This document shows positions 49,208 through 56,009 of a stretch of DNA of 64,000 nucleotides, piece after piece (the first letter of the stretch is position 1; each line of letters begins with the position of its first letter). The position numbers and the translations under genes are program-made. The notes under the pieces were generated by a model that was not told the DNA's origin, searched no databases, and worked only from the letters and a program-made list of their open reading frames with translations. The DNA is from Oscillospiraceae bacterium (lineage in GTDB: Bacteria; Bacillota; Clostridia; Oscillospirales; Acutalibacteraceae): contig SVOC01000015.1 in NCBI GenBank assembly GCA_015066625.1, forward strand, positions 1-64,000. Direction: 5' to 3'.

Positions 49208-50290
49208 ATGTCTAACAGAATTTTTCAGGGTCTTGTTCATCAGATGCGAGATGCAGTGGGAAGGACTCTGGGCGTAATTGACGAAACAGGCACAATAATT
49301 GCTTGCAGCGACCTTAGCAAAATCGGAGAGGTTATTTCAACCGCAAACGATGTTTTCGGTGATAACGAGCTTCACTACATTAACGGATATACTTTCTGCA
49401 ATTTCGGCACACATATTCAGACCGAGTACGCTGTTTTTGTTGACGGCACAGATGAACTTGCAGGCAGATTTGCGGCTGTTTGCTGTGTTTCACTTGAAAA
49501 TCTCAAGCAGTATTACGAGGAAAAATTTGACAGGGGCAACTTTATAAAGAATGTTATTCTTGATAATATTCTTCCCGGTGATATCTACCTTAAATCAAGA
49601 GAGCTCCGTTTCAATGCAGAGGCAACAAGAGTTGTTCTTCTTATCAGAATCACCGACCATAACGATGCCGCAGTGTTTGATACGGTTCAGAATCTTTTCC
49701 CTGATAAGAGCAAGGATTTTGTTATCAACATCAACGAGCACGATATTGCAATCGTTAAGGAAGTACGTAGCAACATTGAAACAAAAGACCTTGAAAAGCT
49801 TGCACGCTCAATTTCCGATTCACTGAGCACCGAGCTTTATACTCATGTTCTTGTCGGTATCGGCACAACCATTGAAGGCATCAAGGACCTTGCCCGCTCA
49901 TTCAAGGAGGCACAGATTGCCCTTGAAGTAGGCAAAGTATTCGATACCGAAAAAACCATTGTCAGCTACGAAAATCTCGGTATAGCAAGACTTATCTATC
50001 AGCTTCCCTCAACACTTTGCGATATGTTCCTCAGAGAAGTGTTCAAGAGAGGCTCAATCGAAAGCCTTGACCACGAAACTCTGTTCACAATTCAGCGTTT
50101 CTTCGAAAATAACCTTAATGTTTCCGAAACTTCAAGAAAGCTGTTTGTTCACAGAAACACACTTGTTTACAGACTTGAAAAAATCAAGAAGCTTACGGGT
50201 CTTGACTTGCGCGAATTCGATGATGCTATCGTATTCAAAGTAGCGCTTATGGTCAAGAAGTATCTTGACGCAAAGCCCGTTAAGTATTAA
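49208..50290 (+). CDS. CdaR/PucR-type transcriptional regulator
   Basis: A 360-residue cytoplasmic regulator. The N-terminal domain (about 1-115: TLGVIDETGTIIACSDLSKI, then GYTFCNFGT) resembles the sugar-diacid or ligand-sensing domain of CdaR. A GGDEF-like middle domain (about 130-250) and a C-terminal PucR-type helix-turn-helix (NNLNVSETSRKLFVHRNTL near 303-321, then LEKIKKLTGLDL) follow. CdaR proteins control carbohydrate-acid genes, but here it stands 30 bases upstream of ftsE and may control the division/wall locus. Confidence 0.87.
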   Translation: MSNRIFQGLVHQMRDAVGRTLGVIDETGTIIACSDLSKIGEVISTANDVFGDNELHYINGYTFCNFGTHIQTEYAVFVDGTDELAGRFAAVCCVSLENLKQYYEEKFDRGNFIKNVILDNILPGDIYLKSRELRFNAEATRVVLLIRITDHNDAAVFDTVQNLFPDKSKDFVININEHDIAIVKEVRSNIETKDLEKLARSISDSLSTELYTHVLVGIGTTIEGIKDLARSFKEAQIALEVGKVFDTEKTIVSYENLGIARLIYQLPSTLCDMFLREVFKRGSIESLDHETLFTIQRFFENNLNVSETSRKLFVHRNTLVYRLEKIKKLTGLDLREFDDAIVFKVALMVKKYLDAKPVKY

Positions 50291-50320: not shown

Positions 50321-51133
50321 GTGATTCAATTTAAAAATGTCTCCAAAAAGTATGATAACGGAACTCATGCTTTAAAAGATATAAACCTTACCATCGAGAA
50401 GGGCGAGTTCGTTTTCGTCGTCGGTTCATCGGGCGCAGGTAAAAGTACCTTCCTGAAGCTGATGATGAGAGAAGAAGTGCCTTCGTCGGGAACGATTGTT
50501 GTTGACGATATCGATTTAACGAAGATAAAGAAGAGGGATATCCCCAAATTCCGCCGCAGACTGGGCATCGTATTCCAGGATTTCAGGCTTATCCCCAACA
50601 TGACGGTTTTTGATAATGTTGCATTCGCAATGCGTGTTATCGGCACCAAAGAAAAGAAAATCGGCAGAAGAGTACCTTATGTGCTCAGCCTTATGGGTCT
50701 GAACGAAAAGGCAAGAAATTTCCCACAGGAGCTTTCCGGCGGCGAGCAGCAGAGAGTTGCTCTTGCACGTGCTCTTGCAAATAATGCGGATATCATTATT
50801 GCGGACGAGCCCACAGGTAACGTCGACCCCCAGATGAGCTACGAAATCGTTGACCTTCTTATGCGTCTTAACGAGGCAGGCACAACGGTTATTATGGTTA
50901 CTCACGAGCACAGCCTTGTGCGCTGCTTTGATAAGCGTGTCATTATTCTTGACAGAGGTAATATTGTTTCCGACGGCGGATCACTTGTGAGAGAAGCGGC
51001 AACATCCCATATCAACCCCGTCAGCGAAATCGAGCATCAGTATGATGTTCCTCCCGAGGAGGACTATTCCGCATACACTCAGGGTACATCTGCTCAGGCG
51101 GAGGAATTTGCAGTTACGGGAGGTGCGGAATAA
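50321..51133 (+). CDS. ftsE: Cell division ATP-binding protein FtsE
   Basis: A 270-residue ABC ATPase of the FtsEX complex, which transmits cytoplasmic ATP hydrolysis to peptidoglycan hydrolases at the septum. It has VVGSSGAGKSTFLKL near 34-48 (Walker A), ELSGGEQQRVALARAL near 138-153 and IIIADEPTGNVDP near 159-171. It starts with GTG at 50321. It is about 40 residues longer than typical FtsE; the extra acidic C-terminal tail (EIEHQYDVPPEEDYSAYTQG) could contact other proteins. It overlaps ftsX by one base. Confidence 0.94.
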   Translation: MIQFKNVSKKYDNGTHALKDINLTIEKGEFVFVVGSSGAGKSTFLKLMMREEVPSSGTIVVDDIDLTKIKKRDIPKFRRRLGIVFQDFRLIPNMTVFDNVAFAMRVIGTKEKKIGRRVPYVLSLMGLNEKARNFPQELSGGEQQRVALARALANNADIIIADEPTGNVDPQMSYEIVDLLMRLNEAGTTVIMVTHEHSLVRCFDKRVIILDRGNIVSDGGSLVREAATSHINPVSEIEHQYDVPPEEDYSAYTQGTSAQAEEFAVTGGAE

Positions 51134-52047
51134 TGGGCAACTTAAGATATCTCACCAAGGAAGGCTTCCGCAACCTTAAGGTAAATAAGCTTATGTCGGT
51201 TGCCTCAGTAACCGTTCTTTTCAGCTGCCTTATGCTTATCGGCATAGCGTTTATGATTCTTGTTAATATTCAGTCGTTCATTTCGGGTATTGAAGCGGAA
51301 AACGTAATCATGGTTTACGCAGACCTTGATGCCAGCGACTACGAATATATGTCTCTGGGCAATGAGCTGAATGCTCTCGGTAATGTGACAAGCGTTGAAG
51401 CGGTTGAAAAAGAGGCGGCATACGAAGAAATTCTTGCGGAAATGGACGACAACCTGAGAATCTATCTCAGCGGTCTTGACGAGAATCCTCTCCCCGATGC
51501 TTACAGAGTAACGGTAACGGATATGTCGGGCTTCGAAAGCGTTGTTGACGAAATCAAAAAGCTTGACGGAATTGAGAGAGTTTATGAAAACAGCTCTCTT
51601 GCAAGACAGCTTGAAGGCATAAGGGATTCCGTAACCTACATAAGCCTGGGAATAATCGTTCTCCTTCTTATCGTTTCACTCTTTATTATTTCAAATACCA
51701 TTAAAGTAACAATGTTCAGCCGACGTCTTGAAATCAGTATTATGAAAAGTGTCGGTGCAACAAATTCCTTCATCCGCTGGCCCTTTATGGTTGAAGGTAT
51801 TATAATCGGCGTCATTGCAGGCGTTCTTGCAACGGGTGCCGTGTGGGCTGTTTATGAATTTGCCCTGACCTCCTTTACGTCGGTGCTTTCGGGCCTCGGC
51901 AGCGGAGCTCAGGTACGCTTCCTTGATTATGCGCTTTATCTTGTTGCGGCTTTTGTGGGTATCGGCATTTTCACAGGCATTTTCGGCAGTGCAACATCCA
52001 TAAGGAAATATCTTAAAGAAAGGAAGTTCGTAGAGCTTGAAGACTAA
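51133..52047 (+). CDS. ftsX: Cell division protein FtsX
   Basis: A 304-residue permease-like partner of FtsE with four transmembrane segments. The first is near 24-46, then an extracellular loop of about 120 residues (55-170) that would contact the hydrolase partner, and three segments between 172 and 295. The conserved RLEISIMKSVGATNSFIRWP stands near 196-215. It overlaps ftsE by one base, and the M23 gene begins within its last codons. Confidence 0.95.
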   Translation: MGNLRYLTKEGFRNLKVNKLMSVASVTVLFSCLMLIGIAFMILVNIQSFISGIEAENVIMVYADLDASDYEYMSLGNELNALGNVTSVEAVEKEAAYEEILAEMDDNLRIYLSGLDENPLPDAYRVTVTDMSGFESVVDEIKKLDGIERVYENSSLARQLEGIRDSVTYISLGIIVLLLIVSLFIISNTIKVTMFSRRLEISIMKSVGATNSFIRWPFMVEGIIIGVIAGVLATGAVWAVYEFALTSFTSVLSGLGSGAQVRFLDYALYLVAAFVGIGIFTGIFGSATSIRKYLKERKFVELED

Positions 52048-53383
52048 AATTCGTGTAAGCGGAAGAAAAAATTTTTTCTGCCTTGCTCTCGCGCTGATTT
52101 GTGTTTTCTCGGCAATGATTATGCCTCAGGCGTCTGCAAAGACTCTTGAAGAAATGAATGCCGAATACGAGCAGATTGAAAAAGATATTCAGGAAAATCA
52201 GGAAAAGCTTGACGAGGTGCAGGAGGATATCCGCACCAACGAGCAGAAGCTCGACAAGCTTAACACTCAGATAGATAAAATCAATGACCAGCTTGATATT
52301 CTCAACGACAGTATTGATATTCTTAATGACGATATTGATTCCCTGCAGTATGATATTACCGCAACAACAAATGATATAAACGAAATTACCATTCAGAAAG
52401 AAGAAATTCTGGCGCAGATTGACCACACACAGTCACTTATGGATGAAACCGAGGATATGCTCCTTGCAAGAATCCGTGAGAATTATATGGCGGGCGGCTC
52501 GGGTTCGACGGTTGAAATTCTTCTTATGAGTGACGATATTTCCTCATTCTTTGCAAGAAGAGAGCTTGTAACCCGCGTATCCGAAAATGATGCGGCGCTT
52601 GTTGCGGAGCTTTCGGATAAAATCGTTCAGCTCAATTCCCTTCAGGCGGAGCTTGACCAAAAGAAGGCAGACCTTGAAGTGAAAGAAACGGAGCTTAACA
52701 CTCAGATGGGCGACCTTACCGCAAAGCAGGATGACCTTCAGAGCAGTAAGGATGCTCAGCAGAGCAAGAAAAACGATGTTACCAAAAAGCAGAACGAAGT
52801 AAAATATCTTCTTGAAGACCTTGATAAGGACAGCGATGCTTACAAAGCCGCAATTAAACGTAAAGAAAAAGAGCGTGCGGCACTTGAAGCCGAAATCGAA
52901 GCGGCAATCAAGCAGAACGGCTCAACCGAGGGTGACAAACCCAAAGAAGAATTTAACAATGACGGCAAGATGCTGTGGCCCGTACCCGGTTCAACAAAAT
53001 TAACGGCAACCTACCCTTCATACAGCGACGGCAGTGCCCACTGGGGTATCGATATTGTAAGAACAGATGTCACAACAAAGGGCTCTCCCTTCCGTGCGGC
53101 TCAGGGCGGCAAGGTAATTACAGCGTATAACGACGGCAACTGGAACTATGGCTTCGGTAACTACTGCATCATTGACCACGGCGACGGTAAGCATACCCTT
53201 TATGCTCATGCCCAGAGACTTTATGTCAGTGAAGGCGATGTGGTTGAAAAGGGTGAACAGATTGGACTTATCGGTGATACGGGTAATACAACGGGACCTC
53301 ACCTTCATTTTGAAGTCAGAATCAAGCGTTCAGACGGAAGTGTTGACAGAGTTAATCCCTTGAACTACGTTTCTAAACCCTGA
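52037..53383 (+). CDS. Coiled-coil M23 peptidase (EnvC/PcsB-like hydrolase partner)
   Basis: A 448-residue secreted protein. The N-terminus has a basic, hydrophobic signal segment (LALALICVFSAMI, then PQASAK). A long coiled coil (about 38-290, with many Glu/Lys/Asp/Asn heptads such as IDKINDQLDILNDSIDIL) is followed by a LytM/M23 domain: AHWGIDIVR, then HTLYAHAQR and TGPHLHFEVR give the His-Asp-His zinc ligands. The start is TTG at 52037, overlapping ftsX by 11 bases. The architecture matches FtsEX-activated EnvC or PcsB-type proteins. Confidence 0.92.
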   Translation: MKTKIRVSGRKNFFCLALALICVFSAMIMPQASAKTLEEMNAEYEQIEKDIQENQEKLDEVQEDIRTNEQKLDKLNTQIDKINDQLDILNDSIDILNDDIDSLQYDITATTNDINEITIQKEEILAQIDHTQSLMDETEDMLLARIRENYMAGGSGSTVEILLMSDDISSFFARRELVTRVSENDAALVAELSDKIVQLNSLQAELDQKKADLEVKETELNTQMGDLTAKQDDLQSSKDAQQSKKNDVTKKQNEVKYLLEDLDKDSDAYKAAIKRKEKERAALEAEIEAAIKQNGSTEGDKPKEEFNNDGKMLWPVPGSTKLTATYPSYSDGSAHWGIDIVRTDVTTKGSPFRAAQGGKVITAYNDGNWNYGFGNYCIIDHGDGKHTLYAHAQRLYVSEGDVVEKGEQIGLIGDTGNTTGPHLHFEVRIKRSDGSVDRVNPLNYVSKP

Positions 53384-53424
53384 CGGAGGATTGCCTCAAT
53401 AAGCGAAAAATAAAATACACCTGA

Positions 53425-53449
53425 AAGGCGGCTTGATGCCGCCTTTTTT
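53425..53449 (+). terminator. Terminator after the M23 gene
   Basis: AAGGCGGC-TTGAT-GCCGCCTT perfect 8-bp stem followed by a T-run. It lies between the M23 and S41 genes, so the S41 gene is expressed by read-through or its own weak promoter. Confidence 0.85.
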
Positions 53450-53470: not shown

Positions 53471-54670
53471 ATGAATAAAAAAATATCTGTCGGTCTGTGT
53501 ATATCTCTTGTCATAATTTTTGTCACTCTCACCTTTGCGGTAACAATGGTTGCTTCAAAGCAGATTTTCAGCGGAATTATGAATAATATTTCCCAGCGAT
53601 CCCAGGCATATCAGTCCGTTGATGAAATAAGTCAGATTGTTTCAAACTATTTTTACGGCTCGGTAAGTGACCGTAATCAGCTCAACGGTGCTCTGTCCGA
53701 GGGCTATGTCAATGGCCTGGGTGACCCAAACAGCAGATACCTTGATGCAACCGAATATGCATCATACACGGGTATGATTGAAGGCGGCGTAACGGGTGCA
53801 GGTATTGAAACCGCATATAATTATCAGCAGGCACAGCTTGCCGTTACCTATGTCTACGAAGGCTCGCCCGCCGAAAAATCGGGTGTGCAGGCAGGGGATG
53901 TAATCACCGCAATCAACAATACCACCGTCACAATGAGTAACTTCGCCCAGCTTCAGAATATGCTTTACGGCAGCCTGCTTTCATCGGTTTCCGTTGAATA
54001 CGAAAGAGAAGGAGAAACAAAGGTAGCCGAGATTATGTCGGGCTTTTCCATCCCAAGCGTAAAGACCAATATTTACGGCAATGTGGGTTATATCAAAATC
54101 AGCGGATTCTATAAAAATACCGCCTCTGAATTCAAGGCGGCAATAGAAAAGCTTACGGAAGACGGTGCGGAAAGCATTGTTTTTGATGTGCGCGATGTTT
54201 CAAGCGGTACAATAGATTATTCGGCGCAGGTTATCGATGTTATCGTGCCTGCAATTTCGGATAACATTGCGGTTGCAAAGGATAAGGACGGCAATGTTTA
54301 TAAAAACAAGATTTACACTGCGGAAAACAGTAATTTTTCAATGCCCTTTGCCGTGCTAATAAACGGCGGTACAAGCGGACCTGCGGAACTTTTTGCCTGC
54401 GATATGCGTGATATCGCACAGGCTCACATCATCGGCACAACCACCGCAGGCAACGGCACAATGCAGGAACTTTTTGCCCTTGAAGACGGCGGCGCGGTGC
54501 TCCTCACCGTTGCGCTCGTTGAGCCCCGAGGCGGTGCGGAGGCGGTTTATGATAAGGTAGGTGTTGCACCTACCGTTGAGGTAACCCTTAACGCAGTCTA
54601 TAACGGCGGCATTCTTACCCTTGAGCAGGATAATCAGCTTTCAACAGCACTTAATATGCTGGCATCCTAA
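53471..54670 (+). CDS. S41/PDZ protein with replaced catalytic residues (predicted pseudo-protease)
   Basis: 399 residues with an N-terminal membrane anchor (about 6-30), a PDZ domain (about 100-195, GSPAEKSGVQAGDVITAINN) and an S41 tail-specific protease core. In CtpA/Tsp the catalytic Ser and Lys are 25 residues apart, in TASASE and GKGT. Here the aligned sites read TSGPAE, with Gly303 in place of Ser, and AGNGT, with Asn328 in place of Lys. It should therefore not cleave peptides and may be a scaffold or regulator. It follows the M23 gene by 87 bases. Confidence 0.88.
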   Translation: MNKKISVGLCISLVIIFVTLTFAVTMVASKQIFSGIMNNISQRSQAYQSVDEISQIVSNYFYGSVSDRNQLNGALSEGYVNGLGDPNSRYLDATEYASYTGMIEGGVTGAGIETAYNYQQAQLAVTYVYEGSPAEKSGVQAGDVITAINNTTVTMSNFAQLQNMLYGSLLSSVSVEYEREGETKVAEIMSGFSIPSVKTNIYGNVGYIKISGFYKNTASEFKAAIEKLTEDGAESIVFDVRDVSSGTIDYSAQVIDVIVPAISDNIAVAKDKDGNVYKNKIYTAENSNFSMPFAVLINGGTSGPAELFACDMRDIAQAHIIGTTTAGNGTMQELFALEDGGAVLLTVALVEPRGGAEAVYDKVGVAPTVEVTLNAVYNGGILTLEQDNQLSTALNMLAS

Positions 54671-55215
54671 AACTTACGGCGAAGCTCAGTTACCTTGCCA
54701 AGTACGGTAACGGGCAGATTTTCGATTTCATCCTCTGAAAAGAGCATAGGCTCAAATACGGGATTTTCAGGCACAAGCATAAGGCTTGTGCCTTTTTTAA
54801 TCACCCTTTTAACCGAAACATCGCTTGGGCCGATTACAACGGCGGCAATATCTCCGCTTCGTACCTCACTGCGTCGGCTGATGATTACCGTATCGTCAAG
54901 TATGAGGGTAGGCGCCATGGAGCCGTCATTGATTGTCAGGGCAAAGTAATCAACACCGCCCAGCTTTTCTTCGGCGGCATCTGCACTGATTCTTTCAAAG
55001 CCGGGTATGCGGTTTTTATCCGCAGGCTTTTCTATGCCCAGAAGAACTTCAACCGATACACCGAAAACTTTTGAAAGAAGCTGAAGACTGTTGCGGTCGG
55101 GGACTGTTCTGCCGTTTTCCCACTGGCTTACGGCGGTCTGATGAACGCAGCAAAGGTCTGCAAGCTGCTTTTGCGAAATCTTATTTTTAAGTCTTAATTC
55201 CTTTATTATATTCAT
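54667..55215 (-). CDS. XRE-HTH repressor with S24 (LexA-like) peptidase domain
   Basis: A 182-residue phage-repressor-like protein. The N-terminal HTH (about 5-60, ISQKQLADLCCVHQTAVSQW) is followed by an S24 domain: INDGSMAPTL with catalytic Ser99 and SVKRVIKK with Lys136, 37 residues apart as in LexA. I see no clear Ala-Gly self-cleavage site in the linker, so cleavage may be absent or at another bond. It starts with ATG after AAAGGAGAATATAA. It is divergent from the dual-HTH gene, and both promoters carry a CAATAGT-n-TCACT word. Confidence 0.9.
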   Translation of the reverse strand: MNIIKELRLKNKISQKQLADLCCVHQTAVSQWENGRTVPDRNSLQLLSKVFGVSVEVLLGIEKPADKNRIPGFERISADAAEEKLGGVDYFALTINDGSMAPTLILDDTVIISRRSEVRSGDIAAVVIGPSDVSVKRVIKKGTSLMLVPENPVFEPMLFSEDEIENLPVTVLGKVTELRRKF

Positions 55216-55254: not shown

Positions 55255-55283
55255 ATTATGAGTGAAACTATTGAGAATGTCAA
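55255..55283 (-). promoter_or_regulatory. Promoter of the S24 repressor gene
   Basis: On the minus strand TTGACA (55278-55283), 17-base spacer, CATAAT (55255-55260). The spacer contains CAATAGTTTCACT. Confidence 0.75.
55261..55273. promoter_or_regulatory. Operator-like site 1 (CAATAGTTTCACT)
   Basis: Reads CAATAGT-T-TCACT on the minus strand, between the -35 and -10 of the repressor promoter. It matches 12 of 13 bases with site 2 of the divergent promoter. Confidence 0.5.
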
Positions 55284-55311
55284 GCGAATTTATAAAAATT
55301 CCAAAAAAATC

Positions 55312-55340
55312 TTGACAAACAAACATTTGTTCATTATAAT
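55312..55340 (+). promoter_or_regulatory. Promoter of the dual-HTH gene
   Basis: Perfect TTGACA (55312-55317), 17-base spacer, perfect TATAAT (55335-55340). An additional ACAAA-CA-TTTGT inverted repeat lies in the spacer. Confidence 0.85.
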
Positions 55341-55373: not shown

Positions 55374-56009
55374 ATGAGAAAAAACCAAAAAACATCCGAT
55401 GTGAGAGAACAGTTTCCAAGCCGTGAGGAGATAAAAGCGGCTCAGCTCGCCTGCTGCGGAAGATGCTGCAATCAGTGCGAATCACCTGCGGAATACGCTT
55501 GGCGCAAACGGGATGTGGATATGGCGCTTTTGCTGGAAAAAGCCATAAAAAAAGAGCTTACCGAAACGGAGCGTGAAACCCTAACCGACCACTGGTTCAA
55601 CTGCGAAACCGTTTCGGGGATTGCGGAGAAAAGAGGGATAAATCCTTCGGCTGTGAACCGCACTCTTGACCGTGCCCGTGAAAAGCTTGAGAGGGTGCTG
55701 AGCTATGCGGTGTGCTATCAGCGTATGCAGAAAAGCGAAAATATTGTTCCTCTTGTGCTTGGCAGAGCGAGGGTCATTGCGGCGGCAAGAAGTGTGCCCG
55801 GCGGCACGTCGGGTGACAGAATTACCCGTCTGAGGCAGAGCCAGAATCTGACTCGCGAAATTCTTGCGCCTGCGCTTGATGTGAGCGTTAAAAGATTGGG
55901 TCAGCTTGAAGCGGATGCAGTGCCCGACGGGGATGAGCTCCGTGCACTCAGTGCTTTTTTTCAGGTAACGGCGGATTATATTCTGAAAGGAGAACTTAAT
56001 GAGCAGTAA
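55374..56009 (+). CDS. Putative DNA-binding protein: Cys cluster, sigma-like HTH and Cro-like HTH
   Basis: 211 residues. Near 26-36 there is a cysteine cluster (CCGRCCNQC). Residues about 55-105 resemble sigma-70 region 4 (TETERETLTDHWFNCETVSG, then INPSAVNRTLDRAREKLERV). Residues about 148-205 resemble a Cro/C1 HTH (RITRLRQSQNLTREILAPAL, then RALSAFFQVTADYILKGE). It might activate or repress an integrated element. The start has a GGAGGTACAA site. It overlaps the following small gene, and it is divergent from the S24 repressor. Confidence 0.75.
   Translation: MRKNQKTSDVREQFPSREEIKAAQLACCGRCCNQCESPAEYAWRKRDVDMALLLEKAIKKELTETERETLTDHWFNCETVSGIAEKRGINPSAVNRTLDRAREKLERVLSYAVCYQRMQKSENIVPLVLGRARVIAAARSVPGGTSGDRITRLRQSQNLTREILAPALDVSVKRLGQLEADAVPDGDELRALSAFFQVTADYILKGELNEQ

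Follow-up and report, generated by a model that had tools for sequence, protein, structure and literature searches.

What does an S41-fold protein do at the end of an ftsEX cluster once the residues that define its family as proteases are gone? The question was raised by a window of 64,000 nucleotides (contig SVOC01000015.1 of the Oscillospiraceae bacterium assembly GCA_015066625.1), in which genes follow the order ftsE-ftsX-M23-S41, with the S41-like gene last (Table 1). An initial annotation made from the DNA letters had linked the gene to FtsEX and an adjacent M23 hydrolase, and Pfam and NCBIfam assigned the neighbors accordingly, as FtsE, FtsX, and a coiled-coil M23 protein. The window M23 protein has H335, D339, H391, H422, and H424 all present, which we take to be its catalytic-type residues. 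In the 2.37-Mb genome (97.7% complete), PF03572 matched the S41-like gene and no other. PADLOC gave zero matches, leaving a defense-system reading unsupported.

Table 1. Features of the S41-like gene and its cluster, in window positions.
Feature	Position	Strand	Basis
PucR-type regulator (HTH_30, GGDEF-like), upstream of cluster	49208..50290	+	Pfam
ftsE	50321..51133	+	NCBIfam TIGR02673, 290.2 bits (cutoff 264.85)
ftsX	51133..52047	+	NCBIfam NF038347, 254.6 bits (cutoff 225); Pfam FtsX_ECD
Coiled-coil M23 peptidoglycan hydrolase	52037..53383	+	PF01551, E 2.4e-26
GC-rich hairpin into T tract, between M23 and S41-like gene	53423..53449	+	RNA fold -19.6 kcal/mol, z -3.87
Predicted S41-fold pseudoprotease, 399 aa	53471..54670	+	ORF open from ATG 53471 to stop 54670; Pfam, HMMER, AlphaFold, Foldseek
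Predicted long helix, residues 7-60, with Arg43	53489..53650	+	DSSP on AlphaFold model; pLDDT <50 at 33-45
PDZ domain, residues 125-179	53843..54007	+	PF17820, E 2.8e-13
S41 core domain, residues 204-371	54080..54583	+	PF03572, E 6.5e-29, 101.1 bits (cutoff 24)
Degenerate DVRxNxGG motif, reads DVRDVSSG, residues 239-246	54185..54208	+	Column comparison with intact copies
Gly303 codon at catalytic Ser position	54377..54379	+	CtpB alignment, relatives
Asn328 codon at catalytic Lys position	54452..54454	+	CtpB alignment, relatives

In overall architecture the protein resembles the S41A CTPs, and CtpB of Bacillus subtilis in particular, with which it shares domain order, fold, N-terminal region, and PDZ and which was its top match by both Foldseek and HMMER. 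The AlphaFold model (pLDDT 83.6, pTM 0.78) found active-state CtpB first among PDB structures (4c2c; E 2.6e-29, TM 0.60/0.56), and the modeled fold is that of an S41A CTP; together with the Pfam PDZ and S41 matches, this upheld the initial view that PDZ domain and fold are kept. A CtpB_N-like match was weak (22.3 bits, below the Pfam cutoff of 27). The long N-terminal helix of the model is a putative membrane anchor that would continue into a stalk. The NCBIfam prc model (TIGR00225) separates this protein from its intact relatives: it scored 158.1 bits, under the cutoff of 218.6, whereas 5 of 5 intact relatives tried passed with 221-273.

The divergence from CtpB lies in the active site. HMMER aligned residues 41-386 with the solved B. 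subtilis protein (4c2h; E 1.2e-28), placing NGGTSGPAE on DKGSASASE and AGNGT on FGKGT. The catalytic residues given in the available text of PMC11021448 are Ser-309, Lys-334, and Gln-338 in CtpB and Ser-302, Lys-327, and Gln-331 in Pseudomonas aeruginosa CtpA, and the window equivalents, Gly303, Asn328, and Gln332, keep the same 25-residue spacing. Alignment and spacing together confirmed the annotated positions: where CtpB has Ser309 and Lys334, the window protein has Gly and Asn, its DVRxNxGG motif is broken as well, and the Ser-Lys dyad of S41A CTPs is missing. DVRxNxGG, which presumably lies near the oxyanion hole, is otherwise firmly kept in intact copies (Asn column 98%, Gly column 99%). 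Nine columns (137, 170, 243, 245, 255, 258, 303, 304, and 328) hold one residue in at least 80% of 104 intact copies and the same residue in fewer than 50% of 166 Gly-state copies; two of them (303 and 328) are the dyad, 304 adjoins it, and 243 and 245 fall inside DVRxNxGG. Two further dead groups preserve this motif better (N243 in 69% and 56%, G245 in 92% and 67%); in the group of the window, position 245 is most often Glu, so the loss of the motif is advanced mainly there. These sequence comparisons strongly support a predicted loss of catalysis in the window protein.

How widely this state is shared was followed through family, order, and class. In the family of the window (f1), 104 of 150 genomes had a match; besides the window's own there were 103, from which 91 loci were fetched, the 12 unfetched genomes matching just a part of the protein, at 38 bits or less. 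Both Ser and Lys were present at 30 of the 91 loci and neither at 51, with Lys but not Ser at 7, Ser but not Lys at 2, and a decayed gene at 1. The 58 copies without Ser had Gly in that column in 55 cases, Ala in 2, and Lys in 1, and 19 of 19 additional f1 loci (L221-L239) had Gly. We also ranked 80 named loci as best by similarity to the window protein, using a search pattern that allowed Gly or Ser; their records, titled Clostridia, Clostridiales, Oscillospiraceae, Ruminococcaceae, and similar, are of uncultured bacteria from gut and rumen. All 80 had Gly, which argues against a sequencing error or private decay in the window genome, and 78 had a residue other than Lys at the second position. 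The expectation that orthologues would share Gly and Asn thus held for the Gly but not for the Asn, which was found in 30 of the 80 in a column that drifts.

At the level of the order, 40 listed places and further loci yielded 100 S41 rows in 98 loci (L123-L220), duplicates, unlinked S41s, and fragments included, with 78 Ser, 11 Gly, 8 Cys, 1 Asp, 1 Asn, and 1 Lys (a fragment) in the Ser column. Outside f1, the Gly state occurred in families f9, f10, f15, and f22, and the Cys and Asn rows were from f22. Eight M23-linked f22 copies (L197, L199, L201, L202, L205, L206, L207, and L210) have Cys for the catalytic Ser and keep the Lys, a possible Cys/Lys dyad; DVRxNxGG is broken in 8 of 8. In a nonrandom class-level sample, the 30 best loci of 196 genomes, Ser and Lys were present in 25 of 25 copies from outside the order, 21 of them with an M23 match nearby; an active protease is therefore probably ancestral.

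Of the genomes tried for S41 domains, 37 of 37 had a single one (29 of these genomes with a dead and 8 with an intact copy), and in none of the 29 dead-copy genomes did we find a second active S41 that might replace the dead one. Further S41 matches beside a dead copy were seen in family genomes G223 (two) and G091 (four matches). Family f9 has a dead copy directly before an intact one (L162, L146); this tandem, which at L162:3454-5816 follows ftsEX-M23, reads G/I or D/I in the first copy and S/K in the second. In f22, a single genome, G297, carries a dead copy (L216) and, apart from it, an intact one (L195). Reduction has gone further at seven of the 91 f1 loci (L112, L113, L116, L117, L118, L119, and L120), where dead copies in frames of 299-411 aa have lost the PDZ domain within the same cluster (four of the seven, compared with Pfam, matched S41 only), and at L121 the S41-like gene is broken by stops.

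The dead copies of f1 do not trace to one event. On an FtsE+FtsX tree of 103 rows they fell into several groups, one nested beside the intact L063 and L088, for a minimum of 6 changes. Forcing them together on 58 of these rows (what remained after removing 9 that were long or outlying and thinning out 36; 5 changes) was 51.1 log-likelihood units worse, with a p-AU of 0.006, and a single loss in the family is therefore rejected on this reduced, quick tree, in which the constrained group was chosen after tree inspection and contains the Ser-bearing L062. A 200-row S41 tree built without the catalytic columns, and leaving out 18 named loci (fragments, duplicates, and unlinked S41s), four repeats, and all of L221-L319, required at least 8 changes, its deep forks being weak. 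L062, which lies inside the dead window group, keeps Ser and has Tyr at the Lys position and might be an intermediate or a reversal. A tie between the loss and loss of sporulation, the process in which CtpB acts (available text of PMC11021448), was not supported: SpoIVB (PF05580) was matched in 35 of 39 dead-copy genomes, 16 of 16 intact ones, and 7 of 9 gene-less ones, and Spo0A_C in 35 of 39, 15 of 16 (14 above cutoff), and 7 of 9, respectively.

Dead copies are under purifying selection, with a constraint much like that on the adjoining M23 gene. We computed dN/dS by the Nei-Gojobori method on stop-to-stop frames, with each row used in a single pair, repeated pairs discarded, and dS confined to 0.1-2. 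Values were 0.032-0.157 (median 0.085) in 34 pairs of dead copies, and the median was 0.094 in 5 intact pairs. Medians over 30 paired comparisons were 0.072 for S41, 0.0945 for M23, and 0.0675 for FtsX, with S41 below M23 in 21 of the 30. Such values are rough because dS exceeds 1 in many pairs, but they remain far from neutral. With nucleophile and base gone, a further motif broken, the Gly conserved, and the gene under selection, the designation as a pseudo-protease is well supported.

Among the 80 named loci, 77 had the order ftsX-M23-S41 and the remaining 3 M23-S41, and a homologue of the PucR-type regulator preceded ftsE in 66. Among the loci scored (some genomes twice), 158 of 160 with Gly, 80 of 82 with Ser, and 8 of 8 with Cys had a same-strand M23 gene no farther than 1.5 kb upstream. 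In f1, ftsX or M23 was in the fetched region at 84 of 91 loci (54 without Ser, 29 with Ser, and 1 decayed); five of the remaining 7 (4 without Ser) lie where a contig ends, and two, L061 and L122, appear not to be linked; the 7-kb region of the dead copy L061 matched neither ftsX nor M23. The S41-like gene thus shows the linkage to ftsEX and its hydrolase that we would ourselves expect of an FtsEX cofactor. The neighboring hydrolase has the residues H, D, H, H, and H beside 148 of 158 copies with Gly and 78 of 78 with Ser. Beside Gly-state S41s, its first His is Thr in 7 of 158 and Asn in 2, and its last His is Asp in 1, hinting that some M23 partners may be dead too.

The linkage has limits. 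FtsX was matched in 19 (one weakly) of the 22 f1 genomes without a clear S41-like match, and 18 regions from gene-less f1 genomes had ftsE and ftsX in 18 and M23 directly after in 16, with no hidden S41 in any of the 18 at E up to 10. The gene after the cluster, compared with Pfam in 6 of these regions, belonged to other families in four and had no assignment in two. Because 16 of 18 regions keep ftsEX-M23 in the absence of the S41-like gene, the link proposed in the initial annotation stands as gene position but not as an obligatory one, and the partner would be accessory. Two gene-less regions (L371:2099-6399 and L372:2078-6357) have ftsEX followed by a run of three M23 genes, the first in L372 split over two frames. 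Given the seven dead copies without PDZ, moreover, presentation of M23 by that domain cannot be a general rule; M23 C termini, considered as a conserved PDZ ligand, gave no one clear pattern. Between intact and dead copies, column entropy dropped from 2.71 to 2.13 in the N-terminal region and less, from 2.36 to 2.20, in the PDZ, the dead set being biased to close relatives, and R43 occurred in 91%, 85%, and 89% of three dead groups against 36% and 16% of two intact groups (one group joins two tree groups).

Upstream of the S41-like gene, the hairpin of Table 1 is terminator- or attenuator-like and was absent from the output of a terminator scan. Similar hairpins lie 5' of the gene in 6 of 21 loci inspected by eye (L240, L241, L243, L244, L250, and L252), the L243 stem being changed with pairing still possible. 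The hairpin may uncouple expression of the S41-like gene from that of M23, and because it separates the two genes in the window, a matched supply of both proteins is doubtful. Farther downstream, at 55255-55340, back-to-back sigma-70 promoter matches (12/12 on the plus and 11/12 on the minus strand) are flanked by an HTH/S24-peptidase gene (54667-55215, minus strand) and a sigma-region-4/HTH gene (55374-56009, plus strand).

The reading that we favor, with moderate confidence, is that the window protein is an S41A CTP homologue whose catalysis was lost and which persists as a noncatalytic partner of the FtsEX-M23 peptidoglycan hydrolase module. From its sequence and setting we infer a role as scaffold or regulator toward M23. 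The protein would be anchored by its N-terminal helix, would dimerize, probably through the CtpB-like N-terminal region, and would bind FtsX, M23, or both via stalk and core, thereby positioning or tuning the hydrolase; contacts by stalk and core are favored because the PDZ is dispensable in some dead copies. It would be to FtsEX-M23 what SweDC is to FtsEX-CwlO of Bacillus and SteAB to FtsEX-RipC of Corynebacterium; it would be accessory, several related genera keeping ftsEX-M23 without an S41-like protein. Binding without cutting has a precedent in the available text of PMC11021448, where the dead CtpA S302A bound its adaptor LbcA about as the wild type did (KD 0.76 and 0.92 uM). A binding role would be the simplest account of a copy that is dead, selected, and syntenic.

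Other accounts fit parts of these data. The protein could be a peptide-binding sensor or holdase that takes C termini or unfolded ends into PDZ and tunnel without cutting them and so protects or sequesters envelope proteins, its FtsEX link being inherited gene order only. That dead copies largely keep PDZ and core positions is in its favor, as is a class-wide M23-S41 neighborhood, since position may then be inherited; we nevertheless consider it unlikely, because the seven PDZ-less dead copies still sit in the ftsE-ftsX-M23 cluster and the entropy drop is greater in the N-terminal region than in the PDZ, although the dead set is biased to close relatives. Improbable, too, is a decaying relic that lost catalysis along with its substrate and is heading for deletion without a current function. 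Every stage expected of such a course is present in the family (intact, dead, dead without PDZ, stop-broken in L121, and absent), but dN/dS of the dead copies is as low as that of the few intact pairs and of M23, and in a 60-row alignment G303, A305, and E306 are invariant and T301 is found in at least 90%.

We rate an active protease with a noncanonical nucleophile or base as highly improbable. Dead copies keep Gln332 (81%), Glu306 (100%), and Thr301 (98%), and Cys310 stands at 90% or more in the 60-row alignment; yet 301 is mostly Thr in intact copies too (65%), and DVRxNxGG is broken along with the dyad. An alternative catalytic pair, such as the Ser302 with another Lys raised in the initial annotation, appears unlikely as well, residue 302 being unconserved (Ser in only 42% of dead copies) and K4, at the N terminus, being the sole Lys invariant or nearly so in the 60 rows. 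A regulatory subunit of an active S41 protease, in a hetero-oligomer, would suit the f9 tandems and the two states of G297, but the window genome and 28 other dead-copy genomes have one PF03572 domain each, which excludes it for the window unless the partner does not belong to PF03572 or is encoded in the 2% of the genome that is missing; we give it almost no credence.

A noncatalytic partner of FtsEX-M23 would have relatives in kind elsewhere. The S41-like region of interphotoreceptor retinoid-binding protein (RBP3) matches the window protein (E 7.8e-9); RBP3 is a nonpeptidase use of the S41 fold, but it is eukaryotic and retinoid-binding and has neither a PDZ nor a cell-division link. Degenerate LytM factors of the EnvC/NlpD type are dead hydrolase homologues reused as activators in the FtsEX pathway; there the M23-like partner is dead, whereas in the window M23 keeps its residues and the S41 protein is dead. 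P. aeruginosa CtpA-LbcA and Escherichia coli Prc-NlpI are proteolytic CTPs that work with adaptors, and the window protein is without residues essential in CtpA, which degrades wall hydrolases and whose S302A and K327A changes abolished proteolysis in vivo (available text of PMC11021448). FtsEX does have clade-specific cofactors in Bacillus and Corynebacterium, the membrane proteins SweDC and SteAB of FtsEX-hydrolase complexes; the likeness proposed here would be functional, SweC and SweD being described in the available part of PMC6705773 by LysM-like and HTH parts and not as S41 proteins. Among the matches listed from open-licence literature, as titles and starts of abstracts, we found no earlier report of a dead S41 or CTP beside FtsEX-M23 and no clade-specific FtsEX cofactor in these Clostridia.

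Extended to one order of gut Clostridia, and here only tentatively, the comparison suggests that an ancestral FtsEX-linked CTP was repeatedly made into a noncatalytic subunit, nearly always by Ser to Gly and sometimes with later loss of the PDZ, which would define a class of pseudoprotease that controls a peptidoglycan hydrolase and is EnvC in mirror image. CTPs have been studied as proteases; here, catalysis was repeatedly lost and the gene is still selected beside an apparently active M23. This suggests a structural role separable from proteolysis, and the intact CTPs of the cluster may bind as well as cut. The natural series of intact, dead, dead without PDZ, and absent offers a way to probe the part of such a partner in the control of FtsEX-hydrolase modules.
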